A DNA stretch of 26,821 nt from positions 1-26,821 of the IMG/VR virus record IMGVR_UViG_3300031658_000094; one strand, written 5' to 3'. This document shows, one piece after another, positions 760-22,900 of this stretch. The notes beneath the pieces were generated by a model that saw only the letters and a program-made list of their open reading frames with translations, was not told where the DNA came from and ran no database searches. This stretch comes from a virus. The stretch's first letter is position 1. Each line of letters begins with the position of its first letter. The translations under genes and the position numbers were made by a program.

Positions 760-776
760 TTTATTATAAATATAAA
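760..776 (-). promoter_or_regulatory. Late AT-rich motif, copy before the 56-aa gene
   Basis: On the minus strand this reads TTTATATTTATAATAAA, identical to copies before the chaperone and protease genes and near-identical to those before the terminase and scaffold genes. It lies just after a strong terminator, as expected of a promoter restarting transcription. It contains TATATTTA, one base off the Bacteroidota -7 form TAnnTTTG, and also TATAAT. Confidence 0.45.
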
Positions 777-791
777 ACTCTACAAATTAGT

Positions 792-826
792 AAAAAAAAA
801 GAGGATATACCCTAAGATATACCCTC
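792..826 (-). terminator. Intrinsic terminator after the tail tube gene
   Basis: On the minus strand an AGAGG...CCTCT stem extends inward through a GTATATC/GGTATAT pairing (with G-T wobbles) to about 12 bp around a four-base TTAG loop. It is followed directly by a run of nine T. It lies about 30 bases past the tail tube stop codon. Confidence 0.82.
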
Positions 827-856
827 TAATAATTATTATATTATCTATTAATCTAC

Positions 857-1387
857 TTAGTAAGCAGGATTTACAGTTAATCCAGTAACATTATCCCATG
901 GATTTGTAGTAAAAGTACCAGCATTACGCATAGGCTCTCTCTCCTGGCTCATAAAAGTCAAGTCATAAGAATAACTATCTCCTAAAGCAGTACCAGTAGC
1001 TGCAGTCCCTGCAGATAGCTCAGCACCTAGTACCTCACCCATAGCCCACTGGTTATTATTGTTATCTAAAATAAAGCAAACTAATCTATTCTGAGCTATT
1101 AATTTTAACTCATCTCTCATAGCATTATCTAGCTTATGTAATTTTACAGTTAAAGTATCCTCATAAAAAACAGTGCCATTTTCACTACTTACAGTAATAG
1201 CTTCAGAAAAATTTCCAGTAGATTTTGGTAAATCGTACCTCCAGGCAGTAGCTGCAGCAACTGTAGTTAGTACAGTACCAGTATAAGTAGGAGTATAATC
1301 TGCTAACTCCATTAATAAAATAGAGCGGATACCTCCTACGCTATCTTTACAGTCTAATAATCTTCCAGCGGTTAAGTCGCAAGCCAT
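857..1387 (-). CDS. Putative major tail tube protein
   Basis: The 176-aa product opens with a conserved-looking CDLTAGRLLDCKDSVGGIRSI segment, continues as beta-rich sequence, and carries RLVCFILDNNNNQWAMG and ATGTALGDSYSYDLTF near residues 100-142. This pattern of a Cys-Lys-Asp N-terminus, an 'unknown diluent plus GTALGD' centre and a final methionine-glutamate-rich strand matches, from memory, tube-like proteins of Bacteroidota siphophages. It follows the major capsid gene and is bracketed by a hairpin upstream and a strong terminator downstream, consistent with an abundant virion protein expressed separately. A minor capsid or decoration protein is the main alternative. Confidence 0.6.
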   Translation of the reverse strand: MACDLTAGRLLDCKDSVGGIRSILLMELADYTPTYTGTVLTTVAAATAWRYDLPKSTGNFSEAITVSSENGTVFYEDTLTVKLHKLDNAMRDELKLIAQNRLVCFILDNNNNQWAMGEVLGAELSAGTAATGTALGDSYSYDLTFMSQEREPMRNAGTFTTNPWDNVTGLTVNPAY

Positions 1388-1423
1388 AATATTTTATTTT
1401 TTTTGTTATTTATTAAAAGTATT

Positions 1424-1445
1424 AGGAGGGTTTTTAGGCCCTCCT
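1424..1445 (-). terminator. Hairpin between capsid and tail tube genes
   Basis: A perfect 7-bp stem AGGAGGG/CCCTCCT with an 8-base loop lies 14 bases past the capsid stop codon. It is followed by AATACTTTTAA rather than an uninterrupted T run, so it may terminate only partially or stabilise the capsid mRNA end. Confidence 0.55.
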
Positions 1446-1458
1446 TATAGTTTAGTTA

Positions 1459-2331
1459 TTAAGCGTATCTTACTACATCTTTCCCTACTGCATGATTTGC
1501 ACCGATAGAAAAATTACCAGCAACTCTAATATTTTGAGATGCGTCTAAATCACTCATATCTAGTACTTTAAGTGTAGTATAGTCAGAGATTAAATCAGTA
1601 GCTGCAAATAAATTACTCTTTTGTGCAGCAATCATTTTATTAACTCCTAAACCTGGCGCATGTGCAATTTTAATACCCTCAAAAGTTAAAGGGATTTCTG
1701 CAGCATAATATAAGTTCATATATCCTAATTTACTCATAGCTGAGATATAAAACCTAACTGCAGCCGTACCCATAAAAATAGTTAAATCCTCCTTACCGTA
1801 ACAGTTAGTAGGTATAGCATCTCTTACTTTTCCTAACTCAGCTATAATATTATTAGCAGATAAAGTACCAGCAACTACATCCACTACAGTAGCATCTCCT
1901 AAAGTACTAGCTAATAAATCACTCCATATTTTATTTTCTACACTCTCTCCAATAGCAGCACCTAAGTACTCCATGATAAAAGCAGTAAAATCCGCATCCA
2001 TACCAGAGTTAGTAACTCCTGCAGTCATGTTTTGCGCTTGCCAATCTTGCTCTAGTGTACGCTTACAAAGTTCAATATTTAATTTTTGCTTAACTGGAGT
2101 AATAACTCTATCAGTTAAAATCATAGCGCCTGCAGTAGAAAAACTGCAATTCTCATCATCAGTAATTAAATTACCACTAGATACTACTGTTAAATTTCTT
2201 TTATACTTTACATTCTCTAAGAATGTAATATTTTGCTCTGCTAAAGTTAATCCAGATTTCATACAAGCACCGATATAATCCCCTGCTTGACTTCCTCTAA
2301 AATTTCCGTTTACTACTAATCCTGTTGGCAT
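1459..2331 (-). CDS. Major capsid protein
   Basis: The 290-aa product fits the short HK97-fold capsid proteins of Bacteroidota phages. Visible features are an N-terminal arm (residues 1-40), a long helical spine region near FTAFIMEYLGAAIGESVENKIW, the central KVRDAIP segment, the LTIFMGTAAVRFYI strand, and a C-terminal domain with EGIKIAHAPGL, NLFAATDLISDY and ending NFSIGANHAVGKDVVRY. It directly follows the acidic scaffold and XkdF protease, the usual maturation neighbours. The leader is A/T only (TAATAAAAAATAAAAAATT), with no Shine-Dalgarno site. The family assignment is strong; the exact fold is inferred. Confidence 0.88.
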   Translation of the reverse strand: MPTGLVVNGNFRGSQAGDYIGACMKSGLTLAEQNITFLENVKYKRNLTVVSSGNLITDDENCSFSTAGAMILTDRVITPVKQKLNIELCKRTLEQDWQAQNMTAGVTNSGMDADFTAFIMEYLGAAIGESVENKIWSDLLASTLGDATVVDVVAGTLSANNIIAELGKVRDAIPTNCYGKEDLTIFMGTAAVRFYISAMSKLGYMNLYYAAEIPLTFEGIKIAHAPGLGVNKMIAAQKSNLFAATDLISDYTTLKVLDMSDLDASQNIRVAGNFSIGANHAVGKDVVRYA

Positions 2332-2361
2332 AATTTTTTATTTTTTATTATTATTTTATTA

Positions 2362-2982
2362 TTATTTTCTATTACTAAGGTTATATCTAATACGCTCTTT
2401 TGCAGTCATATTTAAAATAGCCTCTCTTGATTTGTTTTGCTCTTTTACTGTAGAAAATTTATTTAAAACAATCTCCTCAGATGCTGGAGCGTTAGATAAA
2501 GCCTCTACCTTTTTAGTTAGCTCAGTAATCTCTGCTTTATAAGTATCTAAAATACTAGATAACTCTATAGAGATAACATTAACTAGCTCCTCCTGGCTAA
2601 ATTCGTACTCCTTAGTGCTCTTAACTTTTTTAGGTAATCTATCTGCCTCTTTTTCTAATACTACCTCCTCCTCAGCTACCTCCTCTACTACTTCCTCCTC
2701 AGTTTCTGGCTCAGCTACTACCTCCTCCTCTACTGCCTCTACCATTTCAGATATTACTCCATCCTCTACTACTATAAATCCTCTAGCATCCTCTAAAACA
2801 TACTCTCCAGGTGCTAATAAAATAGTAGTACCATCCTCTACTAAAATTGATACATCCGCTCCAGCCTCTAATACATCAAAAGTAGATACTATAATAGTAC
2901 CATCCTCTAATTTTTCCTGCACTGCCATTTTAACCTCTGCATCTAGGCCTAGGGCTACTCTTACTCTGTTTTTTAAATCCAT
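2362..2982 (-). CDS. Putative capsid scaffold protein
   Basis: The 206-aa protein begins with a small beta domain (residues 15-80: KLEDGTIIV, LLAPGEYVLEDARGFIVVEDG). It continues with a highly acidic stretch (about 83-110, runs of Glu and Val), a coiled-coil-like helix (about 130-165) and a basic C-terminus (residues 180-206). This arrangement between a prohead protease and the capsid gene is typical of scaffolding proteins, whose basic C-terminus contacts capsid subunits. A Ser/Thr-rich frame on the other strand is only the shadow of its Glu codons. Confidence 0.72.
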   Translation of the reverse strand: MDLKNRVRVALGLDAEVKMAVQEKLEDGTIIVSTFDVLEAGADVSILVEDGTTILLAPGEYVLEDARGFIVVEDGVISEMVEAVEEEVVAEPETEEEVVEEVAEEEVVLEKEADRLPKKVKSTKEYEFSQEELVNVISIELSSILDTYKAEITELTKKVEALSNAPASEEIVLNKFSTVKEQNKSREAILNMTAKERIRYNLSNRK

Positions 2983-2995
2983 TATAGTATAGTTT

Positions 2996-3012
2996 TTTGT
3001 TATAAATATATA
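2996..3012 (-). promoter_or_regulatory. Late AT-rich motif, copy before scaffold
   Basis: The minus strand reads TATATATTTATAACAAA here, 15 of 17 identical to the motif before the protease and chaperone genes. It lies 13 bases before the scaffold start codon. Confidence 0.38.
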
Positions 3013-3022
3013 ATTAGTTTGC

Positions 3023-3910
3023 TTATTGTACTTTCAGTATCTTATTACTCCAGTTAAGCATAGCAGCACCACCATAAAGGTTATAGGTAATAGTACCAAA
3101 ATCTGAGTACTTACCAGTATCTATGCTTTTAGTCTTATTTAAAAAGGCATTAATCTTTTTTATATCTGTAATACTTAAATAGCTCCTAGATATTAATTTT
3201 TTACCTATATTAATACTCATTTTAGTAGCATTTAATCCTCTCATCTCATCCTCTATAATAGCCCTCTGAGCATTTAGGATAGCTCTACTAGGATAATCTT
3301 TATAACTAGCTAACTCTAATATCTCAGATAAAGCAGTTAATATATCCTCATTAGTATCCTCTTTATTTTCTACCTTAGTAGATAGGCTAGCTAATTTATC
3401 TATATAAAAGCCCTCTATAGAAAATCCTTTAACTTTTTTAGCTAGTATATCCTGCCATACCTCATCATTTTCTACTTTCATAGATAATACCCATGAGCCT
3501 TTAGGTAAATTTAAACCGTAAATATTACTCTTATCATTTTTAGTATCCTCTACTATCCAACTCTCTACAGTAGTTACATCATGTATAGTATCTCTATGCT
3601 CATAAGTAGCACTACTCTGGTTATTATTCATTAAATAGAGCTCACTGGCACGCTTTACCGTACTCTCACTAAAAAATACATAAAACTCCTTACCGCTCTC
3701 ATCTCTCCTATATATCTGCTTATTAGGTATTAGGGCCGCTCCTATTATTAGGCGCTTATGCTCATCTACTTTAGCTAAAGATAAGTTATTTTTAGTATCC
3801 TTACTTAAAAAAATCCACTCACTTTCAATCGCTGGAAATTCTACCAGGCTTACCGCATCTATTGCCAGGCTCTCATGGCTCTCATCTATAATTAACTCTA
3901 CTATATCCAT
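3023..3910 (-). CDS. Prohead maturation protease, XkdF-type
   Basis: The 295-aa product has the layout of the phage XkdF putative serine protease family. It opens with VSLVEFPAIES (20-30), then RLIIGAALIPNKQIYR (53-68), FYVFFSESTVKR (76-87), an ATYEHRD segment with candidate catalytic His105, ESWIVEDTKNDKSN (116-129), LPKGSWVLSMKVENDEVW (135-152) and VKGFSIEGF with candidate Ser164. The C-terminal third is less conserved and helical. It is expected to process the scaffold and capsid during head maturation, matching its place directly before those genes. Which residues are catalytic is inferred from the family. Confidence 0.85.
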   Translation of the reverse strand: MDIVELIIDESHESLAIDAVSLVEFPAIESEWIFLSKDTKNNLSLAKVDEHKRLIIGAALIPNKQIYRRDESGKEFYVFFSESTVKRASELYLMNNNQSSATYEHRDTIHDVTTVESWIVEDTKNDKSNIYGLNLPKGSWVLSMKVENDEVWQDILAKKVKGFSIEGFYIDKLASLSTKVENKEDTNEDILTALSEILELASYKDYPSRAILNAQRAIIEDEMRGLNATKMSINIGKKLISRSYLSITDIKKINAFLNKTKSIDTGKYSDFGTITYNLYGGAAMLNWSNKILKVQ

Positions 3911-3919
3911 TTTTTTACT

Positions 3920-3936
3920 TTTATTATAAATATAAA
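3920..3936 (-). promoter_or_regulatory. Late AT-rich motif, copy before protease
   Basis: An exact 17-base TTTATATTTATAATAAA on the minus strand lies 9 bases before the protease start codon, in the 34-base gap after the tape measure gene. Confidence 0.45.
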
Positions 3937-3944
3937 TCTATATA

Positions 3945-5912
3945 TTATATGTTACTACGCCTCCTAATAGCCGCTAATTTATCCTGGCTATCAGTTAAGC
4001 TATCAGTAAGTACAAAAGCCTGCACTGGCTCAGTAGATAGGCCAGCTATAGCTCCTCCTACATCCTCAGAGGTAGCTCCTCCTCTGGCAAATCCTACTCC
4101 ACCTCCTGCTACATTCATACTACTTAACGCTCCTCTAAACATCTTAGCACTCTTAGCATTAATAACTACCTCTCCTCTGGATAATTTAGCATCTACACTA
4201 TCACTAGTGCCATTACCATAACCTCCTACTACTCCTCCTTTAGCCATCTTAGGTATCTCAGTAGCATTAATTTGCTCTACTTGTTTCTGGCCTTGTTGTA
4301 AAGCCATCCCTGCAGCTATAATACCTAAAGGCACTCCTACAAATGGTATAGATGCCATACTATTAAATGCGCTCATAGCACCCATTATACTCCCTATCCT
4401 AGCCTCAGCTATTTTATTTTTTTTCCATCCTTTAGTACCCTTAGTTTGCATAGATGCTGCCTGGCCAAACATACCACCGATAGCCGCTAAATCTCCTAGG
4501 CCTAACTTTCTCTCTGCATCTGAGGTAGCTTTATTTTGGGCCTGCACTTTTAGATTATATTTTTTATTTATTGCAGCCTTCATATCTGCAGTATTCTCTT
4601 TATCACTTAATCCATTTATCTCTCTAACACGCTCCTGCTCTATCTGTTCTAGTGCTCTTAAATTTAAATCCTCTATTAATAATAATCCATTTTCCTGCTG
4701 GATTAATAATAATTTATCGGCTGCTTTTTGAGCTCCTAAATCAGCTAAATCCTGGTACTTTTTTACTATTACCGCCTTATCATCTTGGTACTTTGTTTCT
4801 GCATTAGAGCTAGCTGTAAATTTTGCTAAATCACTAGCCTTACTCATTTGTATCTCCTTTTCGTTTTTCTGCCTAGCAGTAAATAACTTAGCTAACTCTA
4901 CCTCCTCTGCAGTTTTTAAGCCTCTATAATATAGCTCCTGCTGGATAGCTACAGTTTCATTAGTTAGCTTAACCTCAGCATCTGCTACCTCCTTAGCTAA
5001 TTTTTTCCTATCCTTTGCCTCTGTTTCTCTTATTTTTTTCCTAGCATCACTAGCCGCCTTTATAGTAGCTAGCCTTTCACTCTCTATTTTTCGCTCAAAA
5101 GTTAGCACCTGGGTAGATACCTTTTTTTTCATTTTAATACTAGCAGTTTCTAAATCTATTAGCCTAATTTTCTCATCTGTTAATCTCTGAAAATCCTCCT
5201 CTAAACTTTCTCCTAAACTTACCTCCTCCTCTACTGCAGCTACTCTCCTCCTTTGTAGCTCTAAACTTTTCTCTGTAGTTTTCTCCTCTAGTACTAAAGC
5301 CCTCTGCAGTGCTGCTAGTTTCTCCTCATTTGTTTTGGTTTCATCTACAGTAATTAACATGGCTTTTTCTATCTCCTGCCTAGTTTGGGCTTTTTCTAGG
5401 CCGAAATCTCTAGTAGCATCTGTTAAGGCTTGTAGCTCCTGCTTTAATCTCATAGCTGCATTAGCCTCCTCTATTATCTCATCTCCTATACCAGATAACG
5501 CTCCTTTAACATCCGCTGCAGCGCCAGCAAAATCTCCAGAAAATACTTTAGCTATAGCTCCTCCTATCATACTTATCCTATCAGTAAGTACTGAGATAGC
5601 TGCACCTATACCAGCTAATACTTGTTCTAGTTTCTCAGCACCAGCCTTAGTATTCATTAAATAACTCATTAGAGAGCCTATAATAACTACAAAAGCACCT
5701 ATACCAGTACTTATTAGCCCAGCCTTAATAGAGCCAAAGAGTAGCTTACTAGTAGCCTTAGCAGCTATCATAGCAGTCCTTACTCCATTCATAGCACCAG
5801 ATAGTAGGGTAGTCTGCACTGCAGCACCCTTAGAGCCATCTCCTACTTTTTTAATATCCTTACTAGCCTTAGCGCTCTTTACTTCTACCTCTAATACAAC
5901 CTTTTCAGCCAT
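3945..5912 (-). CDS. Tail tape measure protein
   Basis: The 655-aa protein has a basic N-terminus and a hydrophobic Gly/Ala-rich region (about 45-150, including GLISTGIGAFVVIIGSL). Long heptad-like helices rich in Glu, Lys and Gln follow (about 150-460), then a second hydrophobic stretch near 500-540. The C-terminus has the tape-measure-type segment IPKMAKGGVVGGYGNG, a DSVDAKLSRGEVVINAK stretch and Gly-rich sequence. This matches short tape measure proteins of siphophages, which set tail length. It shares a 23-bp leader around its start codon with the portal gene. Confidence 0.85.
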   Translation of the reverse strand: MAEKVVLEVEVKSAKASKDIKKVGDGSKGAAVQTTLLSGAMNGVRTAMIAAKATSKLLFGSIKAGLISTGIGAFVVIIGSLMSYLMNTKAGAEKLEQVLAGIGAAISVLTDRISMIGGAIAKVFSGDFAGAAADVKGALSGIGDEIIEEANAAMRLKQELQALTDATRDFGLEKAQTRQEIEKAMLITVDETKTNEEKLAALQRALVLEEKTTEKSLELQRRRVAAVEEEVSLGESLEEDFQRLTDEKIRLIDLETASIKMKKKVSTQVLTFERKIESERLATIKAASDARKKIRETEAKDRKKLAKEVADAEVKLTNETVAIQQELYYRGLKTAEEVELAKLFTARQKNEKEIQMSKASDLAKFTASSNAETKYQDDKAVIVKKYQDLADLGAQKAADKLLLIQQENGLLLIEDLNLRALEQIEQERVREINGLSDKENTADMKAAINKKYNLKVQAQNKATSDAERKLGLGDLAAIGGMFGQAASMQTKGTKGWKKNKIAEARIGSIMGAMSAFNSMASIPFVGVPLGIIAAGMALQQGQKQVEQINATEIPKMAKGGVVGGYGNGTSDSVDAKLSRGEVVINAKSAKMFRGALSSMNVAGGGVGFARGGATSEDVGGAIAGLSTEPVQAFVLTDSLTDSQDKLAAIRRRSNI

Positions 5913-6049
5913 GATTTTTTATTTAATTTATTACTATTTAATCTCTTATCCTTTATATCCTCCAGGCTTTTTAATACTAAACTCATATAGGATAAATTAA
6001 TTATCATCCTATGCTTTATATTATTTAACTCTTTAATCATTTTTATCAT
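5891..6049 (-). CDS. Small basic protein (52 aa) before the tape measure
   Basis: The ATG at 6049 overlaps the TAA of the fibre-like gene as TAATG, and the frame runs to a TAG at 5891-5893, overlapping the tape measure start by 22 bases. It encodes a Lys-rich, probably helical peptide (starting MIKMIKELNNIKHRM) with no membrane segment. The overlaps at both ends and lack of any other explanation for the 136-base gap support it; its shortness and A/T-rich composition are the main doubts. The function is unknown. Confidence 0.52.
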   Translation of the reverse strand: MIKMIKELNNIKHRMIINLSYMSLVLKSLEDIKDKRLNSNKLNKKSWLKRLY

Positions 6050-6885
6050 TATGTTAAAATTATCCCTGCTTTTAATTGAGTAAATCGGATAGTACTAACC
6101 CATTCTATAGTAGCATCTGCATCTCCTCTTACTGCTATATAAAAGTTATCAGATGCTCCTATACTAGCAGTAGGCCTCCAGTTTGTTACTGCCCCATCAC
6201 TACTCATTTTTTTTCTAGTGCGCTTAATAGATAGAGTACCTCCTTTATTTATTACTACTCCTCTCTCTAACCAGCTAGAATAATCTCCTAATCCTCCCTC
6301 TCTAGCAGAGCCTCCTACTCTTAACGCTAATATCTCAGCGTTAAAATACATAGCAGTATTATCTGGTATTATAAAATACTCTGGAATAGTATTATTAAGA
6401 TAGCTGGCTTTAGTATTACCATCTGAAGTAGTAGCGCCATAGAGTAAAGTTATAGCCTGCCTCTGCCCTAATAATGGAGGGTACTGAGTATCTACATCAG
6501 TAGAGTTACCTCCTATTATTATAGAGTTATCTGTAGTAGCCTCTGCTAGCCTACCAGTTATTATACTATTATTAACTCCATCATGTATTACATGCTCTCT
6601 ACCTACTGTTAAAATATTATCTACACTATTACCTAATCTATCCAGTACACTAGCAGATAATCTATTATTAGCAGTAGGTAAATCTCTTGGCGTATTTATA
6701 GTACATACTTTAGGCCTAGTAGTATCTACTCCAGCCCAGTTAAATCCATAAGCCTGGCACTCATCTTTAGTAGGTAAAATATCCTCATAAGTTACTAGCC
6801 CTTTTTTAATAACTTGTTTTTCAAAAATTACATTAGTATTAATAACCTCTTTAGGCCTTACACTATACCCTATTTTAAAATCCAT
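6049..6885 (-). CDS. Tail fibre / receptor-binding-like protein
   Basis: In the 278-aa product, residues about 80-135 carry repeated short strands such as NSIITG and NSIIIGGN, reminiscent of the beta-roll heads of trimeric adhesins. The last 100 residues follow a pattern seen in many phage fibre C-termini: NAEILALRVGG, a WLERG turn, VVINKGGTLSI, then WRPTASIGA, FYIAVRGDADATIEWVSTIRFTQ. The gene sits between the large tail-tip candidate and the tape measure, so host recognition is a reasonable inference, not shown. Confidence 0.6.
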   Translation of the reverse strand: MDFKIGYSVRPKEVINTNVIFEKQVIKKGLVTYEDILPTKDECQAYGFNWAGVDTTRPKVCTINTPRDLPTANNRLSASVLDRLGNSVDNILTVGREHVIHDGVNNSIITGRLAEATTDNSIIIGGNSTDVDTQYPPLLGQRQAITLLYGATTSDGNTKASYLNNTIPEYFIIPDNTAMYFNAEILALRVGGSAREGGLGDYSSWLERGVVINKGGTLSIKRTRKKMSSDGAVTNWRPTASIGASDNFYIAVRGDADATIEWVSTIRFTQLKAGIILT

Positions 6886-6886
6886 T

Positions 6887-9013
6887 TTATAAATCTTTTA
6901 TAGTTAATAACTCCATTTTACTTATAGCTCCAGGCCTATACTCTATTTTCCTTATCCTATATTTTTTATTCTTAATTAATACAGTATCATTAAACTGCAT
7001 ATTAGCTATATCAGAGCTATTTAAATTAACTAATATACTCACTATCTTAGTATCCTTATGGTAGAGCTCATCTATGTATCTACCGTAATATAAAGTATAT
7101 AAGCTATTTAATACAGTGCCTCCTCCCCATCCAGAGTAGCTAACTGTACCAAAATTAAGGCCCTCACTACTAGATGTAATAGGATAGATATTAGTAGATG
7201 AGAATTGATTATATATAACACTAGAATTAATAGGCCAAAATCCAGAGCAGTTAATATACCCAGAGCCTGGTATATTTACAGTACCATTATCATAAAGCAC
7301 CCTAAAAGCATTAGGCCAGTTAGTTAAACTAGTATCCTGGTTTACTATATGAGGTGCAAATATTTGTATTTCTGGAGATAAAGCCTTACAATAAGTAGCG
7401 GCAAATGGTTTTACTTGTATAATCTCCTCCTTACTATCAAAAATCTCTATATTAGGAGTAAAATTATATGGGTATTGCCATTTGTTAGGATTATTATGGT
7501 TTATTGTAATCCAGTCTGGAGTATCCTCAGTAAATGTAAATGATATTTTTTTATTTAATCCAGTTATAGGCTTATATTTAATCTCTTTTATATCCACTTT
7601 ACTAGTTAAATCATGTAAAGCAGTGCCACTATCTACCCAGGTACGGTATGGCTCTATAATTAAGTTACTAGGGTTAGTAGCATCCTGCATAATTATTAAT
7701 TTATACATATCTATAAAAGCCTTAAAATAATCCCACTGGGTTAAATCTCCTTTATCAGAATTTACTAGTATATTTTCAAAATCTATTACCTTAGTAGAGT
7801 TACTAAATATAGACTGCCCACTACCATCTAAAGTAAAAGTACCAGTAGCATTAATACATTTTATCTCCTGCTTTATTATCTCTCCTGGAAATCCACCAGC
7901 ACCATAAAGGCCCATACCAGCCTCAAATAATATATCTCCATTAGTTAAAGGTATAGAGCTACCAGTCCACACCTGGCCAGTAGTCATATTAGTATATTTA
8001 AATAATATATTAAGAGTAACGCCTCCAGCTATCACTACTGGTATATCAGTATTAGGGTAAATACCTACATTATTAGAGGCGGTAGTAGCATTTTCATAGG
8101 TAAAATTAGTAGTATCATAATAATTAGCAGCATTAAAATTAGAGTTAGCAGTAGCAGTACCATACTCTATCCTTTGCCATGTATTATTATATACCTTAGT
8201 AGTATTAGGGTTAGTACATAAAATCTCTACCTGGGCTATTCCTATCTCTGTATTAGTATCATTATATAACTTATTAAAAGATGGGCTATTTAAAAAATTA
8301 GATGTATATGTATATCCTGCATCTCTAAATATATTATCTATAAGATATAAGCAATTTATCCAGGGCCTATATCCATCCCAGCCATCTGGAAAACTCCAGA
8401 TAGAGTAGGTAGCATTAGCAGTGGGTACTGTATTCCATTTGCATATAGGGTATCTAAGTACTTGGGTATGGGTATCTCCTAGAGCGCCTGCAAAACTATC
8501 AGAGGTATTTATAGGATATAATAATTTTACTCCTACTGCAGTATCAAAAGATGGTACTACAGTATCCTCATGGTATTCATGCCTTAACTCAGTTAAATCT
8601 ATATCTGTAATTAATTTATTACTTAAAGTATCTTTTAGCTGCACTGCCTCAGAGTATAAAGTTATATCATAACTAATTACATCCTCTTTAATTAATATAT
8701 CATTTAACTGCATGTAGCCCTCAAAAATAGTAATACTATTATCTTTTAGTATTATAGCAGTTTTTAAATGAGGATTAAAATTACTATTAGATGTAACCTC
8801 ATAAATAAAAGTAAAAAATTTATTATTTATTTTAGTGCCTGGTAACTTCATAGGCCTAGAGTAGCTGGCAGTATTCTCAGCTACATTAGTAAAATCATCT
8901 ACATTTAATACTAGAGGTATAGGCTCATTATTATATAAATCTAATACTGTACTATCTATTACTCCTCCTAAATTAAAATTAGTACCCTGCGGATATGCTA
9001 TTAATTGTATCAT
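6887..9013 (-). CDS. Large tail-tip / baseplate-like structural protein
   Basis: The 708-aa product is rich in Asn, Thr and Tyr. Its N-terminal 150 residues include LDLYNNEPIPLVLNVDDFTNVAENTASYSRPMKLPGT cut across residues 25-60, a pattern I associate with tail-hub proteins of Bacteroidota phages: 'x-L-D-L-Y-x-x-E' then 'S-R-P-x-x-x-P-G-T'. The centre (about 420-520) has FIDMYKLIIMQD and PNLIIEPYRTWVD-type strands seen in tail hub folds, and the C-terminus (LVNLNSSDIANMQFNDTVLI) is compact. It is coupled to its neighbours by gaps of 1-2 bases. A role in the distal tail is likely; the exact part is not certain. Confidence 0.62.
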   Translation of the reverse strand: MIQLIAYPQGTNFNLGGVIDSTVLDLYNNEPIPLVLNVDDFTNVAENTASYSRPMKLPGTKINNKFFTFIYEVTSNSNFNPHLKTAIILKDNSITIFEGYMQLNDILIKEDVISYDITLYSEAVQLKDTLSNKLITDIDLTELRHEYHEDTVVPSFDTAVGVKLLYPINTSDSFAGALGDTHTQVLRYPICKWNTVPTANATYSIWSFPDGWDGYRPWINCLYLIDNIFRDAGYTYTSNFLNSPSFNKLYNDTNTEIGIAQVEILCTNPNTTKVYNNTWQRIEYGTATANSNFNAANYYDTTNFTYENATTASNNVGIYPNTDIPVVIAGGVTLNILFKYTNMTTGQVWTGSSIPLTNGDILFEAGMGLYGAGGFPGEIIKQEIKCINATGTFTLDGSGQSIFSNSTKVIDFENILVNSDKGDLTQWDYFKAFIDMYKLIIMQDATNPSNLIIEPYRTWVDSGTALHDLTSKVDIKEIKYKPITGLNKKISFTFTEDTPDWITINHNNPNKWQYPYNFTPNIEIFDSKEEIIQVKPFAATYCKALSPEIQIFAPHIVNQDTSLTNWPNAFRVLYDNGTVNIPGSGYINCSGFWPINSSVIYNQFSSTNIYPITSSSEGLNFGTVSYSGWGGGTVLNSLYTLYYGRYIDELYHKDTKIVSILVNLNSSDIANMQFNDTVLIKNKKYRIRKIEYRPGAISKMELLTIKDL

Positions 9014-9015
9014 TT

Positions 9016-10449
9016 TTATCCTTTTTGAGTTCTAATATTCTCTGCATATGTTACCTCTATCTCATACTGAGCTACTTTATCATTAGCCTCTGTATATTTT
9101 TCATATTTTTTAGAGGTTACTGTTACTGGGGTTACATATTTGCCATACTCAGCACCATTAGTACCAGCATCTGAATTATTTTTACCATTTAATATAAATA
9201 CTTCATTAGATATAAATAATTCCTCTAGCCAGGCAGCCTCCTCATCAGTAGTAAACCAGTCAGAATTACAGTTAATAACTCTAGTAGGAGAGGTAGTTAA
9301 TCCAGTTTTACCTCCCTGGTATCCATACTGGTTATATTTTGCACCATTCCAGTTACCTTTAATCTGGGTATAATCACTCCTTTTAATATTAGTACTCCTG
9401 CTATTCTTTTTAGTAAAATTATAATAATCCCATACTCCAAATTTATTAAGCCAGGTTAATCTTATATTTTCAAATCCTTTACAATCTGGATTTTGTTTTT
9501 TAAATGTTTTTACCTCATGGTATCCATAACCTGAGGTATTAGTTAAAGTTACTGTATAAGTATCCCAGTTTGCTGGTACTGATATTCCAGCGCCTGCAAA
9601 ATTAGCAGGGCCTACTCCTACATACTGTAGCTCCTTACCTATCTGTTGAAAACCAAGAGAGTTAGTGCCATCCCATCCTCCATTAGTATTATTTACAGTC
9701 GTATTAGTACTACTACCAATCTGAGCACCAGAGGCATCTCTAAATACTACCTGCATTTTGCCTGCTGGTATAGCATAGCCCTCCCAGTACCCTGCAAAAA
9801 AGGCCATAGTATGGTAGTCATTATCTCCTATATATAAAGTATCTGGAGAGTTAGTTAAAAAATTTATATTAGCATTTAGAGTACTACCTCCATCATATAT
9901 ATACTTCTTATTATTCCAATTTAAATAATCTACTCCATAATTATTAGCTACCATATTTTGCTCTCCTCCATAATCCATACCATTTAATAACCTACCTAAA
10001 TAACTACTAGCACCATAATAATAAGCAGTAGCACCATTAGGAGTAGTAGCATAACTCTCATAAAAGAAAATGCCGAAATTTATCATAGCATTATTAGATA
10101 AAGCAAATTTATCTATACAGTGTATAGGATGAGGAGTAGCTAAACTAAATGCAGTGCCTTTAAAAGTGCTTACAGTAAAATAAGCCATGTTACCTAAATA
10201 ATCAGCACTTAGGTACTGCTCATATACACTACTAACATCTGCTATACCTACTCCTGCAGCATTTGCAGATATATCCATAATAACTGTAGTAAAACTAATA
10301 CTCCCTATATAACCGTAAAGAGGATATACTATATATTTATATTTATATTTTGTAGCATCAGTAGCATTAGGAGAGCTAACTGTATAAATCATATCCTGGC
10401 CTACTATTGTATTTTCTTTTAAGGGTTTAGTATCTACTGTATAAGCCAT
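9016..10449 (-). CDS. Virion structural protein, tail-associated
   Basis: The 477-aa protein has no signal peptide and is rich in Tyr, Asn, Gly and Thr like tail or fibre proteins. A C-terminal stretch near 325-425 (FENIRLTWLNKFGVWDYYNFTKK, then WFTTDEEAAWLEELFISNEVFI, here given in pieces) recurs in Bacteroidota phage structural proteins from memory. The gene lies between the gp10-like and the 708-aa tail genes with one- to two-base gaps, so it is probably part of the tail. Its biochemical role is unknown. Confidence 0.6.
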   Translation of the reverse strand: MAYTVDTKPLKENTIVGQDMIYTVSSPNATDATKYKYKYIVYPLYGYIGSISFTTVIMDISANAAGVGIADVSSVYEQYLSADYLGNMAYFTVSTFKGTAFSLATPHPIHCIDKFALSNNAMINFGIFFYESYATTPNGATAYYYGASSYLGRLLNGMDYGGEQNMVANNYGVDYLNWNNKKYIYDGGSTLNANINFLTNSPDTLYIGDNDYHTMAFFAGYWEGYAIPAGKMQVVFRDASGAQIGSSTNTTVNNTNGGWDGTNSLGFQQIGKELQYVGVGPANFAGAGISVPANWDTYTVTLTNTSGYGYHEVKTFKKQNPDCKGFENIRLTWLNKFGVWDYYNFTKKNSRSTNIKRSDYTQIKGNWNGAKYNQYGYQGGKTGLTTSPTRVINCNSDWFTTDEEAAWLEELFISNEVFILNGKNNSDAGTNGAEYGKYVTPVTVTSKKYEKYTEANDKVAQYEIEVTYAENIRTQKG

Positions 10450-10450
10450 T

Positions 10451-10975
10451 TTATTTTATTTTTGTTTTTGTGTATTCACTACCTAGTATATTCTGTAGCA
10501 TTTTAGCGCTATCTATTCCATAGGCTTTAATTATTTCTGGTGCTAATCTCTTATGGTGCATCTTAAAGGCATCTCTAAAAAACCATTTAGGCTGGATGCC
10601 ATAGGTTTTTATGTGTAAGGCTATACCAAATGCTGCAGAGTTTATATTAGCCTGGCTCTTAGATTTAAATTTACCAGTTTTACTATCTCTTAATTTAATA
10701 GGTTTATCTTTAATCCATTTAGCTATAGCACTACTAGGCGGCATACTACCAGGCTTACGGCCCTCCTCTACATTTTTAAAATAATCCTCTGCAGAAAAAT
10801 CCATTTCTAAAGCACCAGATGGATATACTTTTACATTAAAACTAAGGCTATTAGATAGAGTACTAGCCTTAGTATTTATCTTACGCCTATTTAAATAAAA
10901 TTTAGCTCTATGTATTACATTAGCTCCAAACTTTTTAAAAGCCTCCTCAGTATTTATAAAGTTATTATTAGCCAT
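10451..10975 (-). CDS. Head-tail joining / tail completion protein, gp10-like
   Basis: The 174-aa product is basic. It starts with FKKFGANVIHRAKFYLNRRKIN, then a SNSLSFNVKVYPSG strand pair and ALEMDFSAEDYFKNVEEGRKPGSMPPSSAIAKWIKDK around residues 55-90, read here in pieces. The 'Y-x-x-x-V-E-x-G-R-K-P-G-x-x-P-P' pattern with a following WI helix is typical of HK97-gp10-like neck or tail completion proteins. An aromatic IQPKWFFRDAF segment (about 126-138) completes the match. It follows the putative tail terminator gene, as gp10-like genes usually do. Confidence 0.68.
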   Translation of the reverse strand: MANNNFINTEEAFKKFGANVIHRAKFYLNRRKINTKASTLSNSLSFNVKVYPSGALEMDFSAEDYFKNVEEGRKPGSMPPSSAIAKWIKDKPIKLRDSKTGKFKSKSQANINSAAFGIALHIKTYGIQPKWFFRDAFKMHHKRLAPEIIKAYGIDSAKMLQNILGSEYTKTKIK

Positions 10976-11112
10976 TAAATTTAAATCCTTTTATATATAT
11001 CATTCTTGTTATATGCTATCTGCTATGCAGTTTTATTTTTACTACCTATGTATCTTACTCATCCTTAATTACTTACCCTACCTATTAGCTATGTACTTTA
11101 GTGTGCAGCTAT
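10976..11112 (-). other. 137-bp non-coding gap inside the tail operon
   Basis: This is the largest break in an otherwise tightly packed tail operon. No coupled ORF longer than a few codons is present. It holds a 23-bp exact copy (10996-11018) of a piece of the replication gene at 18859-19287, plus a nearby eight-base copy GCTATGCA in the same order. Confidence 0.6.
10996..11018. repeat. 23-bp exact dispersed repeat, late-region copy
   Basis: The bases are identical to 18907-18929 (inner part CATTCTTGTTATATGC). A second shared block GCTATGCA follows after 3 bases here and after 14 bases at the other site. Here the repeat is non-coding, and the equivalent reading frame is closed by a TAG. Confidence 0.85.
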
Positions 11113-11724
11113 TTAAGTAGTAACCGTTTGCCCTGCAGGCATTACTACTGGCTTATCCTCTTTAGGGCTATTAACAGATGCAGCACAGTTAATAACTCCA
11201 TTATCTACCCAGGCCCACTGGCCACTCTCTCCATCTATAGTAGCATCCCAGTTAAAGCTATCACATGCAAAGTAGGTACTAGGTACTGTAATACTAAAGC
11301 TACAATTAAAGCCAGATACTACATTATCAAACCTCTCTGTAAATTGCTCTAGTGTAAAATCTTTATCATCTGCCTGGCCATAAATACCCTCATTTTGCTG
11401 CACTCCTAATAATAATCCATGCTTATACTGAGCTATTATATCTATTAAAATCTGCATAGTATCGCTTAATACTTGTTGCTCATTACTATCATCATCCTTA
11501 ACTAAATCCATAGCCAGGATATTAAAATTAAAAGTAATTTGCTGCACTCCTGCAGTTACATTACCAGGCACTATATGCACTAAAGGATAAACTGAGTTAG
11601 CAGATAAATCCACCTCATCTACTCCTCCAGAGCTAACATTATTAACCATACCATGAGTAAGAGCTACACATTTAAGCGCATCTATTACATTATTATAAGT
11701 AGCATTATTATTTTTATTTATCAT
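11113..11724 (-). CDS. Putative tail terminator protein
   Basis: In the 203-aa product, after a helical N-terminus comes VYPLVHIVPGNVT (46-58), then an ITFNFNILAMDLVKDD strand with an acidic end (63-78). Next is a long helix QVLSDTMQILIDIIAQYK (about 84-101), and an EQFTERFDNVVSGFNCSFSITVP segment (125-147). The order strand, 'D', long helix, 'E-x-F-x-D/N', strand resembles tail terminator/completion proteins of siphophages. It follows the chaperone pair and precedes the gp10-like gene. The C-terminal 50 residues (with SFNWDATIDGESGQWAW) are extra. The assignment is by pattern and context. Confidence 0.5.
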   Translation of the reverse strand: MINKNNNATYNNVIDALKCVALTHGMVNNVSSGGVDEVDLSANSVYPLVHIVPGNVTAGVQQITFNFNILAMDLVKDDDSNEQQVLSDTMQILIDIIAQYKHGLLLGVQQNEGIYGQADDKDFTLEQFTERFDNVVSGFNCSFSITVPSTYFACDSFNWDATIDGESGQWAWVDNGVINCAASVNSPKEDKPVVMPAGQTVTT

Positions 11725-11730
11725 ATCCTT

Positions 11731-11991
11731 TTATTTTCTATTTAACTCCTCATTTAGCTCTACATCTTTAGTATAAGATAACCAATTTAAGCATGTATTT
11801 ACCTCTAATTTACTTACTGCATCCATCTTTAATACATCTCCTCCAGCCATTCTATGGATAAGGCAGTACCATCCGTACTTAGTACCTATATTATCTCCTT
11901 TATCTGGCTCATCTTTATAGTGCTCTGGCTCATCTCCTCCTCCTCCAAAGAGGATAGCATACTCTCTATATGTATCATGCCGATACTGCAA
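11731..11991 (-). CDS. Tail assembly chaperone, -1 frame T domain
   Basis: This open frame has no convincing start of its own (its first possible start is a TTG inside the T9 tract). It overlaps the upstream chaperone gene by 106 bases in the -1 frame. Slippage on the heptamer T TTT TTT would join the first 180 residues of the upstream protein to these 86 residues, giving a 266-aa fusion. The domain includes YGWYCLIHRMAGGDV and VSKLEVNTCLNWLSYTKDV, a pattern of T-type chaperone extensions. The fusion would chaperone the tape measure, while the unshifted product is made in excess. Confidence 0.75.
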   Translation of the reverse strand: MQYRHDTYREYAILFGGGGDEPEHYKDEPDKGDNIGTKYGWYCLIHRMAGGDVLKMDAVSKLEVNTCLNWLSYTKDVELNEELNRK

Positions 11992-12530
11992 AAAAAAACC
12001 AGCGCTCCATAAACCGTATCTATACTTAACCTCTCTCTAAATAGCTCTCTCCTCTTTATTATATCCTTTAAAGTGTATGGCTCTATATTATATTTATCTC
12101 CATCTCTACTAGTTACTGGCCTATATAATACTGCAAATACTTTATCTAAATTATTAAATCCATCCTGGAGGTAGTTATCTAAATCTACAAACTCTCCTAA
12201 ACTGAGCTCATCAAAATCTGGTATTATACCATACTCTATACCATCTATCTCTATTACTCTATTTAGAGTAGAGTTAGGCAGTATCTCAGTTAGCTCTCCT
12301 AACTGCTTATAAGCCTCTCTAATCTGCTTAATAGGTACTTTACTTAGTATGCCCTCATCTATACCTACTAAGGCCTCTAGGCTCTTAATCATTAGCTCCA
12401 TCTTAGTACTCTCCTGCTTATCTACTGCTATCATTAACTTACTATACTGGCCTATACTTACCTCATCCCAGTCAGTAGGTAACTCATAACTCTTAACATC
12501 CTCTCCTATTTTTAGCTTTACTATTCTCAT
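11886..12530 (-). CDS. Tail assembly chaperone, 0-frame G protein
   Basis: The 214-aa product is acidic, with a beta-strand start (RIVKLKIGEDVKSYELPTDWDEVSIGQYSKLM in pieces) and helices around DELSLGEFVDLDNYLQD and FNNLDKVFAVLYRPVTS. 'W-x-E-V-x-x-G-Q-Y' and 'L-Y-R-P' are recurring marks of chaperones and neighbouring proteins in Bacteroidota phages. Its last 34 residues after the slip site (SIGMIHIESMLSSLEEEE and on) read as a low-complexity tail, as in unshifted G proteins. It starts right after a copy of the late AT-rich motif and follows a terminator behind terminase. Confidence 0.75.
   Translation of the reverse strand: MRIVKLKIGEDVKSYELPTDWDEVSIGQYSKLMIAVDKQESTKMELMIKSLEALVGIDEGILSKVPIKQIREAYKQLGELTEILPNSTLNRVIEIDGIEYGIIPDFDELSLGEFVDLDNYLQDGFNNLDKVFAVLYRPVTSRDGDKYNIEPYTLKDIIKRRELFRERLSIDTVYGALVFFCSIGMIHIESMLSSLEEEEMSQSTIKMSQIKEII
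11990..11998 (-). promoter_or_regulatory. T9 slippery tract for -1 frameshifting
   Basis: The minus strand has nine T between GG and GC. In the chaperone frame the codons are GTT TTT TTT TGC, so T TTT TTT fits the X XXY YYZ rule. A step back by one gives TTG and the 86-codon open frame. Transcriptional slippage on the T run is an alternative way to make the same fusion. Confidence 0.78.
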
Positions 12531-12546
12531 TTATTATAAATATAAA
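12530..12546 (-). promoter_or_regulatory. Late AT-rich motif, copy before tail chaperone
   Basis: An exact TTTATATTTATAATAAA on the minus strand abuts the start codon; its last A is the A of ATG. If it is a promoter, the transcript would have almost no leader. Confidence 0.42.
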
Positions 12547-12603
12547 TCATTATTATTTAATATATAACTATTTTAAAAGCATTTAAGCAGTTAAATAAGC
12601 CTT

Positions 12604-12613
12604 ACAGTACTGT
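12604..12613. other. 10-bp palindrome in the gap after terminase
   Basis: ACAGTACTGT is a perfect palindrome in the 127-bp gap between the terminase terminator and the chaperone gene. A small dimeric regulator site is possible, but nothing else supports it. Confidence 0.3.
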
Positions 12614-12619
12614 ACTATT

Positions 12620-12645
12620 AAAAAACTCTATAAGTTAAGTAGAGT
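12620..12645 (-). terminator. Terminator after the terminase large subunit
   Basis: On the minus strand ACTCTA and TAGAGT form a 6-bp stem with a 9-base loop, followed by six T. It is 12 bases past the terL stop. The stem is A/T-rich and may be leaky. Confidence 0.58.
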
Positions 12646-12657
12646 AATTTTACTAGG

Positions 12658-13968
12658 TTACCTAACAGAGTATTTACCAGTACTTACATTTAACTCATAA
12701 TAGCAGCGCATCATAATAGCATCTGAGTAATCTGGAGAGCGCCCTATTAAATCCTTAATCTTATCCTTACTTAGTATGCTTAGCTTACCATCCTTATCCA
12801 TGTTTATCCTCCTTATCTGCTCTAGCTCCTGGATTAAAGCCTCCTTAATCTTTATGCTATTAGTACTAACTCCTATCTGGCCCTTATTAATTAAATCTGC
12901 TAGCTTATAACTGCACTGGGCTTTTAAATTCTGGTAATTTTCTCCTCTTAAAGGCCTGCTATTATTTACAAATCCTTTGCAGCGTAGTATATCTTTACAT
13001 CCTCCTCCTACTCCATCCTCATCTACCAGTATATTACTTAGCTTAATACCCTCCCTTTGTTGTATCTCTCTAATCTTATTAGCTACATCTACCATACTAC
13101 TCATATCCATAGTAACTATATCTATAATCTGTAGGCCATTCCATAAATATATAACAGTTTTATCCTTACCAAAACGGGCTATATCTGCAGTAATAAACTT
13201 ATCTCCAGTAGGCACTACATTACTAAACATATTAATAATAGCATCATACTCTATTAAAGCATCCTTACTATCATCATATTCCCAGTCCCCTCTAAGTAAT
13301 CTAGCCTTACTAATCTCATCTAGCTTATTTAACTGAGCAGTATAATGCTTAGATATATGCTTATTATCTGTAACTAGGGCCTGGATAAATTGCTTATGGC
13401 TAGGTAGTACGCCCTCTCTACTCTCCTTATAGATATTATATACCCATCCTTTGGCAGGGTTACAACTCATATATAATTTAGGGATTAATCCAAACTCATC
13501 TAATTTATATCTTAGCCTACTACTTAGTATATTCTTAGCCTTTTCGGTAATCTGGTTAGCCTCATCTATGCAGGCAAATGTTAGCTCTAAACTTCCTAGG
13601 CTATCAAAATTAGCATCACTAGGATATAAAAATAAATCTTTTAGTATGATGCTGCTACCATTATAAAAGGTTATAACATTACTCTGAGCGTTATAAGTAT
13701 AGTGCTCTCCTGCCTTAATATTCCACTGGCTACATACATCCCAAAAGGTAAGTAAAGTAGTTTTTTTAAGAGCATCCAGTTTACTCCTACCTATTAAACC
13801 TCTTACTCCTGGATACTGTAGGCATGTAATAATAGCATAGGCGCATAGTAAATAACTCTTACCTCCTCCTGCAGCACCACCATAAAGTAGCTCAGTAGTA
13901 GTATCATCTAGCATATACTTAAATGCCTGCTTTTGTTTATTAGTTAAATCTGGGCTTATATCTATCAT
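12658..13968 (-). CDS. terL: Terminase large subunit
   Basis: The 436-aa protein is the DNA-packaging motor. The ATPase part has Walker A GGAAGGGKS (30-38), Walker B FACIDEA (131-137, Asp135-Glu136) and motif III MSCNP (167-171). The nuclease part has acidic residues in TADIARFGKDKT (Asp262), LVDEDGVGGG (Asp316/Asp318) and SPDYSDA (Asp413/Asp416). The length is typical of compact phage terminases. An AAAGGAG stretch touches the ATG, one of few purine-rich Shine-Dalgarno-like sites here. It follows terS by 40 bases. Confidence 0.96.
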   Translation of the reverse strand: MIDISPDLTNKQKQAFKYMLDDTTTELLYGGAAGGGKSYLLCAYAIITCLQYPGVRGLIGRSKLDALKKTTLLTFWDVCSQWNIKAGEHYTYNAQSNVITFYNGSSIILKDLFLYPSDANFDSLGSLELTFACIDEANQITEKAKNILSSRLRYKLDEFGLIPKLYMSCNPAKGWVYNIYKESREGVLPSHKQFIQALVTDNKHISKHYTAQLNKLDEISKARLLRGDWEYDDSKDALIEYDAIINMFSNVVPTGDKFITADIARFGKDKTVIYLWNGLQIIDIVTMDMSSMVDVANKIREIQQREGIKLSNILVDEDGVGGGCKDILRCKGFVNNSRPLRGENYQNLKAQCSYKLADLINKGQIGVSTNSIKIKEALIQELEQIRRINMDKDGKLSILSKDKIKDLIGRSPDYSDAIMMRCYYELNVSTGKYSVR

Positions 13969-14008
13969 CTCCTTTTACGAATTATTAAGCAAAATATAAG
14001 CAGCAATA

Positions 14009-14362
14009 CTAACAGTTTGGAGTTTCATCTAGGTTAATATTAATCTTAATCTTATCTCCTTTACTAGTAATATCAGTTTCCTGGCGCTCTACATATCCTC
14101 TACTCTTAGCTCTAGTCTTTAAATAAAATAATATAGCTACTACATTACCATCTCCTATTAGTTTCTGTAGCTCACTCTCAGCATCATCTATTAGGGCCTC
14201 AGTAATATCTAATACTGTTAGCTTAAAATCCTCATGCTTTTCCATCCAGTTATAATAGGTACGCCTATTAATACTCATAGCCCTACATGCGCCTGCTACA
14301 TTACCAGCCTGCTTAGTTAGTATCTCTATAAATCTCTCTCTATCCTTATCAGTATATGCCAT
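14009..14362 (-). CDS. terS: Terminase small subunit
   Basis: In the 117-aa product, residues 5-40 form a helix-turn-helix of the small terminase type: ERFIEILTKQAGNVAGACRAM, then INRRTYYNWMEKHEDF. Helices for oligomerisation follow (50-95, including VVAILFYLKTRAKSRGY). It lies directly before terL. It should bind the packaging start site and hand DNA to the motor. The protein is at the short end of the family. Confidence 0.88.
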   Translation of the reverse strand: MAYTDKDRERFIEILTKQAGNVAGACRAMSINRRTYYNWMEKHEDFKLTVLDITEALIDDAESELQKLIGDGNVVAILFYLKTRAKSRGYVERQETDITSKGDKIKININLDETPNC

Positions 14363-14391
14363 CTCTTTTTATATGTGTATAATTAGTTTAC

Positions 14392-14408
14392 TTTAATATA
14401 AATATAAA
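14392..14408 (-). promoter_or_regulatory. Late AT-rich motif, copy before terminase
   Basis: TTTATATTTATATTAAA on the minus strand is 16 of 17 identical to the exact copies elsewhere. It lies 29 bases before the terS start, leaving a normal leader length if it is a promoter. Confidence 0.45.
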
Positions 14409-14491
14409 CTCTATCCTATTTAGTTAATCAACTACCTTGTAATCCCAGTTAGTTCGTTTACTTTGTCTTTTAAATTGATTAATAAACAAGA

Positions 14492-15709: not shown

Positions 15710-15942
15710 TTTTTCCATTTATTTTTAGGGCATATCTCTGTAGTCCAGGATGCTTTTACCTCTACTGGGCAGCCACAAACCTTACACTCATCTTTATCAG
15801 CATCATAATACCTACATGATAAGCATGTTAATACTCTACTATCATATAACTCCTTACTACTCTTAATAAATCCTCCTGCAGCAAACTTAGCAGCGGCTAG
15901 AGTAAAGTTACTCAGTAGCTTTAATTTCTTTGGTTTTGTCAT
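15706..15942 (-). CDS. Small zinc-ribbon-like protein (78 aa)
   Basis: After a basic N-terminal helix (NFTLAAAKFAAGGFIKSS), residues 40-72 hold five or six Cys: CLSCRYYDADKDECKVCGCP, then ICPKNKW. The spacing (CxxC, then CxxCxC, then a final C) suggests a zinc ribbon. Its start overlaps the sigma-like gene by 35 bases in another frame. A role in DNA binding or as a transcription accessory factor is possible; nothing in the sequence decides it. Confidence 0.68.
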   Translation of the reverse strand: MTKPKKLKLLSNFTLAAAKFAAGGFIKSSKELYDSRVLTCLSCRYYDADKDECKVCGCPVEVKASWTTEICPKNKWKK

Positions 15943-16471
15943 CTATGTTATCCTTAATATAATTTCTTACCTTTTTTAGTGTATTAAATATACTAGTACG
16001 ACTAATACCAGTTTTTGCAGCCAGGCTATCTAAAGTATAGCTATCTCTATAATAGGTTAAAAATAATTCTCTATCATACCAGTATAAATTACTTAATAAG
16101 TCATCTATACCATCTAATCTAATATGCGTACCACTCCTACTATCATCTCCTGGCTTATTTTGGTAGTTATCTGGAGAGTATGTTAAATCACTGGTATTAC
16201 TATCAAAGAGCTCATAATACTTATTATACTTATAATAATAGCGGCTAGTTTTACTCTTAATATTTAGGCTTATCATCCTTATTATATACCATAATAAACC
16301 ATCTTTATTATATATATCCTGGAGCGTTTCCTTTGGCATCTTTAGGCAGGCCTCCATTACCATCTGTACTACATCACTAGCCTTATCCTCATCCTGGCAT
16401 ATATTAAGAGCCACCTCCTTATACTTATTATATCCAGATGCTAAAGCATCATATACATCTATTTTACTCAT
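15908..16471 (-). CDS. Sigma-70-like RNA polymerase sigma factor
   Basis: In the 187-aa product, residues about 10-75 resemble region 2 (QDEDKASDVVQMVMEACLKMP then LLWYIIRMISLNIKSK). Residues about 134-172 form a region-4-like helix-turn-helix (ELFLTYYRDSYTLDSLAAKTGISRTSIFNTLKKVRNYI, read in pieces). Between them lies an acidic Asn/Ser-rich linker. The length fits ECF-type sigma factors and the sigma-like proteins of Bacteroidota phages. It may redirect host RNA polymerase to late genes, and the repeated late AT-rich motif is a candidate target; that link is inference. The start overlaps the upstream stop (ATGAGTAA). Confidence 0.72.
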   Translation of the reverse strand: MSKIDVYDALASGYNKYKEVALNICQDEDKASDVVQMVMEACLKMPKETLQDIYNKDGLLWYIIRMISLNIKSKTSRYYYKYNKYYELFDSNTSDLTYSPDNYQNKPGDDSRSGTHIRLDGIDDLLSNLYWYDRELFLTYYRDSYTLDSLAAKTGISRTSIFNTLKKVRNYIKDNIDDKTKEIKATE

Positions 16472-16856: not shown

Positions 16857-17099
16857 TTAAAATGGTAAATCATCCTTATCATCTTTAGGTACATTATCAG
16901 TATCTGGCTTTACATAAACATCAGATAAGGCAGCGCTAAAAAATTTACCATTATTACCCTCCTTAATCCAGAGAGCTATTTGCTGCTCTGTACCATCTTT
17001 TAATAGTATTTTACCTTTATAATCTGGCTGGTTTTCTGCAGTCTTATAGTCATTTTTAAATATACTACCAAATCCTGGTTTTTGTTTAAAATCACTCAT
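16857..17099 (-). CDS. SSB-like protein, DUF736-like, with acidic tail
   Basis: A start at 17099 gives 80 residues. It is preferred over ATG 17201, whose extra 34 residues are low-complexity and would contain a promoter-like TATATTTG. The core (FGSIFKNDYKTAENQPDYKGKILL, IALWIKEGNNGKFFSAALSDVYV) resembles small OB-fold DUF736-type proteins. The C-terminus DDKDDLPF matches the acidic tip of bacterial SSB (DDxPF) that recruits replication and repair partners. Placement beside RusA and the helicase fits single-strand DNA binding during replication. Confidence 0.6.
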   Translation of the reverse strand: MSDFKQKPGFGSIFKNDYKTAENQPDYKGKILLKDGTEQQIALWIKEGNNGKFFSAALSDVYVKPDTDNVPKDDKDDLPF

Positions 17100-17130
17100 C
17101 TTAATTATCTTTAAATTATTATTATTGGTA

Positions 17131-17138
17131 CAAATATA
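17131..17138 (-). promoter_or_regulatory. Possible promoter -7 element before the SSB-like gene
   Basis: The minus strand reads TATATTTG, an exact TAnnTTTG match, 31 bases before the chosen ATG. No -33 TTG was seen at the usual distance. It would supply extra SSB-like transcript. Confidence 0.4.
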
Positions 17139-21731: not shown

Positions 21732-21752
21732 TTTAGTTATTTTTATTAATTA

Positions 21753-22892: not shown

Positions 22893-22900
22893 CAAATATA
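22893..22900 (-). promoter_or_regulatory. Possible promoter -7 element before the phosphoesterase gene
   Basis: TATATTTG on the minus strand is an exact TAnnTTTG match, ending 5 bases before ATG 22887. No -33 TTG was found, and the RNA would be nearly leaderless. Confidence 0.28.

Follow-up and report, generated by a model that had tools for sequence, protein, structure and literature searches.

Phage-encoded extracytoplasmic function (ECF) sigma factors with their own middle and late promoters are known from phiEco32, and such a system has been inferred for phage 7-11 (PMC4331800, PMC7881722). Bacterial ECF promoters are of the -35 AAC / -10 CGT type, and a flavobacterial motif with a CGT box, SM6, has been described (PMC9723704). 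Here we analysed a stretch of viral DNA of 26,821 nucleotides (nt), IMG/VR record IMGVR_UViG_3300031658_000094 (hereafter the window, meaning this whole stretch), in which an AT-rich motif stands before five late genes and which encodes a 187 amino acid (aa) sigma-like protein. We conclude that the five sites are very probably promoters of virion and packaging genes, which would be read by host core RNA polymerase together with this phage protein, a predicted ECF-type sigma factor.

Like phiEco32 and 7-11, the window combines a small phage ECF sigma factor with a few well-conserved short promoters before structural genes, recognisable from the genome alone, and as in phiEco32 the predicted cognate promoters lie ahead of structural genes and host-type promoters ahead of early genes. 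In contrast, phiEco32 and 7-11 are Kuravirus-like podophages of Enterobacteria with the consensus TAATGTATA, and the present system differs from phiEco32 in having a clear -35-like box (in the distant relatives termed clade II below and in Nonlabens phage P12024L) and promoters that often abut the ATG. The principle is already known from phiEco32; for Bacteroidota phages, no report of a phage-specific promoter system was found in the literature searched, which largely excluded subscription papers. Late promoters of T4 are AT-rich and are read by host core polymerase with the phage sigma factor gp55, as is predicted here. However, gp55 lacks the -35-binding sigma4 domain and the T4 element TATAAATA has no -35 box, whereas the window sigma factor has a sigma4 domain and its sites a conserved upstream box, and thus do not show the gp55-type pattern of a -10 box only and no region 4.

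A conserved two-box motif precedes late genes

The first-pass annotation had reported the motif at five sites, and rescanning bore this out: three copies are exact (760-776, 3920-3936 and 12530-12546), one has a single mismatch (14392-14408) and one has two (2996-3012), all on the minus (coding) strand and none on the other. With up to two mismatches allowed there were five matches, where Markov models (orders 1, 3 and 4) predict 0.14-0.29, and simulated genomes never held more than three; with up to three mismatches there were 12 in the window against 3.4 expected from dinucleotide shuffles. A leave-one-out weight matrix, trained on other genomes, gave these five copies the top scores of the window (15.5-29.1). 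The remark that none precedes replication genes also stands, because the next sense site scored 10.2 and the best antisense site 9.6, compared with 15.5 for the lowest of the five copies. The motif lies as close to late genes as had been described, ending 17 nt from the ATG of the 56-aa gene, 13 nt from that of the scaffold candidate, 9 nt from that of the protease and 29 nt from that of terS, and overlapping the A of the ATG of the 214-aa gene (p214; distance -1). Gene names such as 'scaffold' and 'chaperone' are based on position and weak profiles. Two copies had been placed after terminators, which is correct for the copy at 760-776 (stem 800-827, T8) and not for the second, no terminator having been called before 12546 in our scan.

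Relatives of the sigma-like protein were found at about 50 IMG/VR loci, consisting of close relatives with sigma proteins 56-100% identical to that of the window (clade I), distant relatives at 34-42% (clade II) and a few stragglers. In clade I contigs the motif precedes the 56-aa gene, protease, scaffold candidate, p214 and terS. In clade II, whose proteins are 26-47% identical to those of the window, the same 11-mer precedes the 56-aa gene, protease, p214 and the gene at the scaffold position; in every clade II genome scanned, the leave-one-out matrix recovered four sites, each ahead of a late gene that also has one in the window. The site before the 56-aa gene is orthologous in both clades, and in clade II it has T-runs upstream at the place of the window terminator. 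Exact matches to TTTATATTTAT on the sense strand lie no more than 65 nt upstream of a gene start in 43 of 49 cases in clade II (3% of the sequence), where only 4 antisense matches were seen and 3.0 were expected per strand; in clade I, 12 of 13 sense matches are near gene starts.

A second box was recognised further upstream. At 34 of the 38 distinct sense-strand sites in clade II, AAC or GAC lies exactly 15 bp before the motif (AAAACAAA); of the four exceptions, two lie away from these genes, one adjoins an N run and one is a copy overlapping a site already counted. The distance from the C of AAC to the aligned -10 box, taken from the printed sequences, is 18 bp in both clade II and P12024L. 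The corresponding box of clade I, A[ACT]TAA at an identical offset, is weaker. The bacterial ECF layout of an AAC-type -35 box and a spacer of about 16-17 bp is seen in clade II and P12024L. The clade of the window shows only this weak A[ACT]TAA and further differs from bacterial ECF promoters in its -10 box (TTTATATTTAT) and its ATTAA/ACTAA-like -35 box; no anti-sigma partner was identified. A search of 2.9 million viral contigs with the clade II promoter pattern alone returned five contigs, four of which are family members by their late genes or sigma factor. The sigma gene is on the contig in two, one of which (G032) is a divergent new family member.

The window encodes a predicted ECF-type sigma factor

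The 187-aa protein had been called sigma-70-like, which was right as to family and can be refined: by profile, predicted fold and conservation we assign it to the ECF-type (group 4) sigma factors. Residues 14-174 match positions 7-163/165 of TIGR02937 (sigma70-ECF; E=2e-8, 34 bits), a model that 27 of 28 homologues also match, and Pfam gave only weak region 4 and region 2 matches. An AlphaFold2 model contains sigma2-like and sigma4-like helical blocks and a low-confidence disordered linker (86-112), and its best PDB matches in Foldseek are ECF sigma factors in RNA polymerase initiation complexes. Known ECF factors read the -10 element at a loop and the last sigma2 helix; in the model these are covered by the segment SKTSRYYYKYNKYYE (residues 73-87), which is near-invariant in relatives that retain TTTATATTTAT. 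BLASTP showed no similarity between the window protein and phiEco32 gp36, and the match to the gp36 family (phrog_1740) was weak (E=0.011; for P12024L_35, E=6e-6), pointing at most to a very distant relationship with that family.

Sigma factor and box change together

P12024L encodes a different ECF-like sigma factor just before terS, and AAAAC-N17-CGTTA stands before its late genes at six sites in total, all on the same strand, against 0.12 expected; every site is 7-8 nt ahead of an ATG. We take this arrangement to fit the bacterial ECF promoter layout, to which the AAC of clade II at the same spacing also corresponds. Relatives of P12024L (sigma 47-92% identical) retain AAAAC-N17-CGTTA before terS and other genes, and among six contigs with repeated sites of this type four have a P12024L-type sigma factor, the other two giving no match. 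In another relative (G021) the sigma2 segment is altered (SNTSPFYKKFRG), the window motif is absent, and CCAACAAA...TTATAyTTAAC adjoins the ATG of two genes. In three further contigs (L029, L030 and L117), p214 is among the genes preceded by TTCTATTATATA-like boxes. The picture is less clear for this lineage, whose sigma2 segment has changed little and in which the antisense strand shows the pattern as well. From the co-variation we infer that each sigma factor would recognise the sites of its own lineage.

Evidence for and against a phage promoter system

A phage-specific late promoter, as the first-pass annotation had suggested, is supported by the observed site positions and their conservation at orthologous genes, the two-box geometry, the ECF assignment and the co-change with the sigma lineage. 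Several observations weigh against it. At 34 bits, the ECF score of the window protein misses the curated cut-off of 42.9, the confidence of the AlphaFold2 model is moderate (pLDDT 77, pTM 0.46) and the Foldseek E-values exceed 0.001. The motif is absent before terS in clade II, clade I has a weak -35-like box, with 30 of its 46 sites showing A[ACT]TA at -15, and 'late' is deduced from gene function.

The motif might instead act in RNA, as an AT-rich translation-initiation leader ahead of highly expressed genes, which had been named as the main alternative. Several copies near an ATG would suit this, as would the preference of flavobacteria, which lack Shine-Dalgarno sequences, for unstructured A-rich leaders that have A at -3 (PMC6847099). 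We nevertheless regard it as very improbable, because the distance from motif to ATG varies, from -1 to about 40 nt, and because a second conserved box, about 18 bp upstream of the motif at a constant distance, would fall outside the transcript. The ATG distance at terS orthologues shifts by up to 15 nt with the motif intact, most clade I p214 sites have T at -3, and other lineages have unrelated boxes (CGTTAATA, TTATAyTTAAC) at the position of the motif, although translation rules should not change. RNA family and tRNA searches of the window found none, and thus no known leader RNA.

An activator or repressor of the ArpU/RinA/Q type could bind the sites and act with the host sigma factor, the 187-aa protein being that activator rather than a sigma factor; its C-terminal domain does weakly match phrog_36 (transcriptional regulator) and phrog_79 (Q-like). 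This too is improbable, if slightly less so, given a nearly full-length ECF profile match (14-174), a sigma2 plus sigma4 fold whose best PDB matches are sigma factors of initiation complexes, and a -35/-10-like geometry within about 12 bp of the ATG, which at p214 leaves no space for a separate downstream host promoter. The motif also lacks the host -7 element TAnnTTTG, having A where the host needs G. The same base bears on whether host polymerase might read the sites without a phage factor, as variant sigma-A promoters. They resemble the sigma-A promoters of Bacteroidota (TTTG/TAnnTTTG) in being AT-rich with a box starting TA near the transcription start, and TATATTTA departs from TAnnTTTG at the last base only. 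However, all tabulated sites of both clades have A at this base, whereas G is nearly invariant at the end of the host element (PMC6847099); the obligatory TTTG end is missing, the second box differs, genuine TATATTTG boxes stand before early operons of the same genome, and other lineages swap the box entirely. The chance that these are host promoters of this kind seems to us negligible.

Proposed transcription programme

Sigma binding, transcription start points and timing are what we infer for the phage promoter system. Early in infection the host primary sigma factor would read TAnnTTTG promoters and transcribe early operons, including the sigma gene. The sigma4 domain of the phage factor would then bind the -35-like box (A[ACT]TAA in the window's clade, AAACAAA in relatives) and its sigma2 domain the TTTATATTTAT box, switching on terS-terL, p214 and the tail genes, the protease-scaffold-capsid genes and, downstream of a terminator, the genes from the 56-aa gene onwards. 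This last operon runs on into the portal gene across the identical ends of the window. Since the p214 box abuts the start codon in both clades, the p214 transcript is probably leaderless or nearly so, and the 7-8 nt between CGTTA and ATG imply that the P12024L transcripts should be likewise; leaderless messages make up only 5.5% of mapped F. psychrophilum mRNAs (PMC9723704).

The TATATTTG box before the ssb-to-sigma operon is conserved across clade I; with the box before the metallophosphoesterase gene, it suggests that the genome uses host promoters early and its own box late. The -7 element was informative alone when combined with conservation, whereas the strict host pattern TTG-N16-23-TAnnTTTG was no better than chance. 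An E. coli-type sigma-70 promoter scan was uninformative (61 versus 70.6 in shuffles). The box at 17131-17138 lies inside the open reading frame (ORF) 16857-17201 (minus strand) as called; the ssb-like gene more probably begins at an in-frame ATG at 17099.

Genome context and other features

The window is a phage genome closed by 175-bp identical ends (1-175 / 26647-26821), with a unique length of 26,646 bp; the contig is circular or terminally redundant. The selected genes are all on the minus strand (Table 1). The large terminase shares 51% identity with its counterpart in Flavobacterium phage 11b, and the gene order (protease first, then portal, lysis, metallophosphoesterase and Erf) parallels that of P12024L; the phage appears to belong to marine flavobacteria. 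The sigma query had no match among annotated phages and a single match among 84,980 genomes, on one contig inside a metagenome-assembled genome (MAG), so no prophage host was identified. That contig (L117) is 36 kb long, lies in a Pseudooceanicola MAG and is probably a misbinned flavobacterial phage.

Table 1. Predicted promoters and associated features of the window.
Feature	Position	Strand	Description
Predicted late promoter 1	760..794	-	TTTATATTTATAATAAA (760-776) and -35-like ACTAA (787-791); before 56-aa gene (572-742), directly after terminator; score 27.3
Intrinsic terminator upstream of promoter 1	800..827	-	12-bp stem, T8
Predicted late promoter 2	2996..3030	-	TATATATTTATAACAAA and AATAA box; before 206-aa scaffold candidate (2362-2982); score 24.1
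Predicted late promoter 3	3920..3954	-	TTTATATTTATAATAAA and ATATA box; before head maturation protease gene (3023-3910); score 25.3
Predicted late promoter 4	12530..12564	-	TTTATATTTATAATAAATG and ATTAA box; abuts ATG of 214-aa gene (11886-12530); score 29.1
Predicted late promoter 5	14392..14426	-	TTTATATTTATATTAAA and CTAA box; before terS (14009-14362); score 15.5
Predicted phage ECF-type sigma factor, 187 aa (sigma2 and sigma4)	15908..16471	-	Profile, predicted fold, conservation
Host-type -7 element TATATTTG (TAnnTTTG)	17131..17138	-	Conserved upstream of ssb...sigma operon; predicted early/middle promoter
Host-type -7 element TATATTTG	22893..22900	-	5 nt before metallophosphoesterase gene (22153-22887); candidate early promoter

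We also noted a number of sites near the sigma and late genes. In L022-L052 a weaker late-box-like site, ATTATATTTATAAaAAA (score about 16), lies about 104-110 nt upstream of the sigma gene within the preceding ORF, and is duplicated in L046; in clade II this may be a positive feedback promoter or a coding coincidence (IYKK). Clade II motif-like matches inside the ORF upstream of the sigma gene were put aside as possibly coding, and a motif-like stretch in the L016 sigma gene was rejected as coding, since it encodes a conserved YYKYNKYY segment. The other strong terminator of the window (1424-1445) precedes a 176-aa gene that has no good motif copy there; the region 1388-1445 (minus strand) is a bidirectional terminator, followed by that gene. 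For this gene a relative (G002) shows a degenerate late box (TATATACTTTTAATAAA, score 13) whose window counterpart does not rise above background. In P12024L (L116), 21405-21884 is annotated as 'hypothetical protein containing Sigma-70 region 2', and its likely six-site regulon is unannotated. Elsewhere in the window, an ORF at 11731-11991 (minus strand), in the -1 frame, overlaps the 3' end of p214 (11886-12530) just after a nine-T run (GCTGGTTTTTTTTTGCAG), an overlap that looks like the programmed frameshift of tail assembly chaperones. Two tandem copies of about 24 bp (CTTTAAATTCAGAACTTTTTAACC) lie just upstream of 20789 (minus strand), directly ahead of the gene adjoining the Erf gene.

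Implications

On balance we lean, by a modest measure, towards a broader view in which tailed phages of marine Bacteroidota share a class of phage ECF sigma factors not reported before, with promoters that diverge alongside them. This class would comprise at least four sigma lineages with distinct -10 and/or -35 boxes, most retaining an AAC-type -35 box at the same spacing, and virion genes would be expressed from leaderless or near-leaderless transcripts. The analysis yields a predicted sigma factor, a predicted regulon and, for each late gene, a predicted transcript start; the system can be tested directly in P12024L, a Nonlabens phage in culture. The matched series of sigma factors and boxes, with the same -10 and different -35 or the same -35 and different -10, represents a natural experiment on which residues read which bases. 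These promoters are also a possible source of orthogonal promoters for Bacteroidota, where E. coli tools fail.

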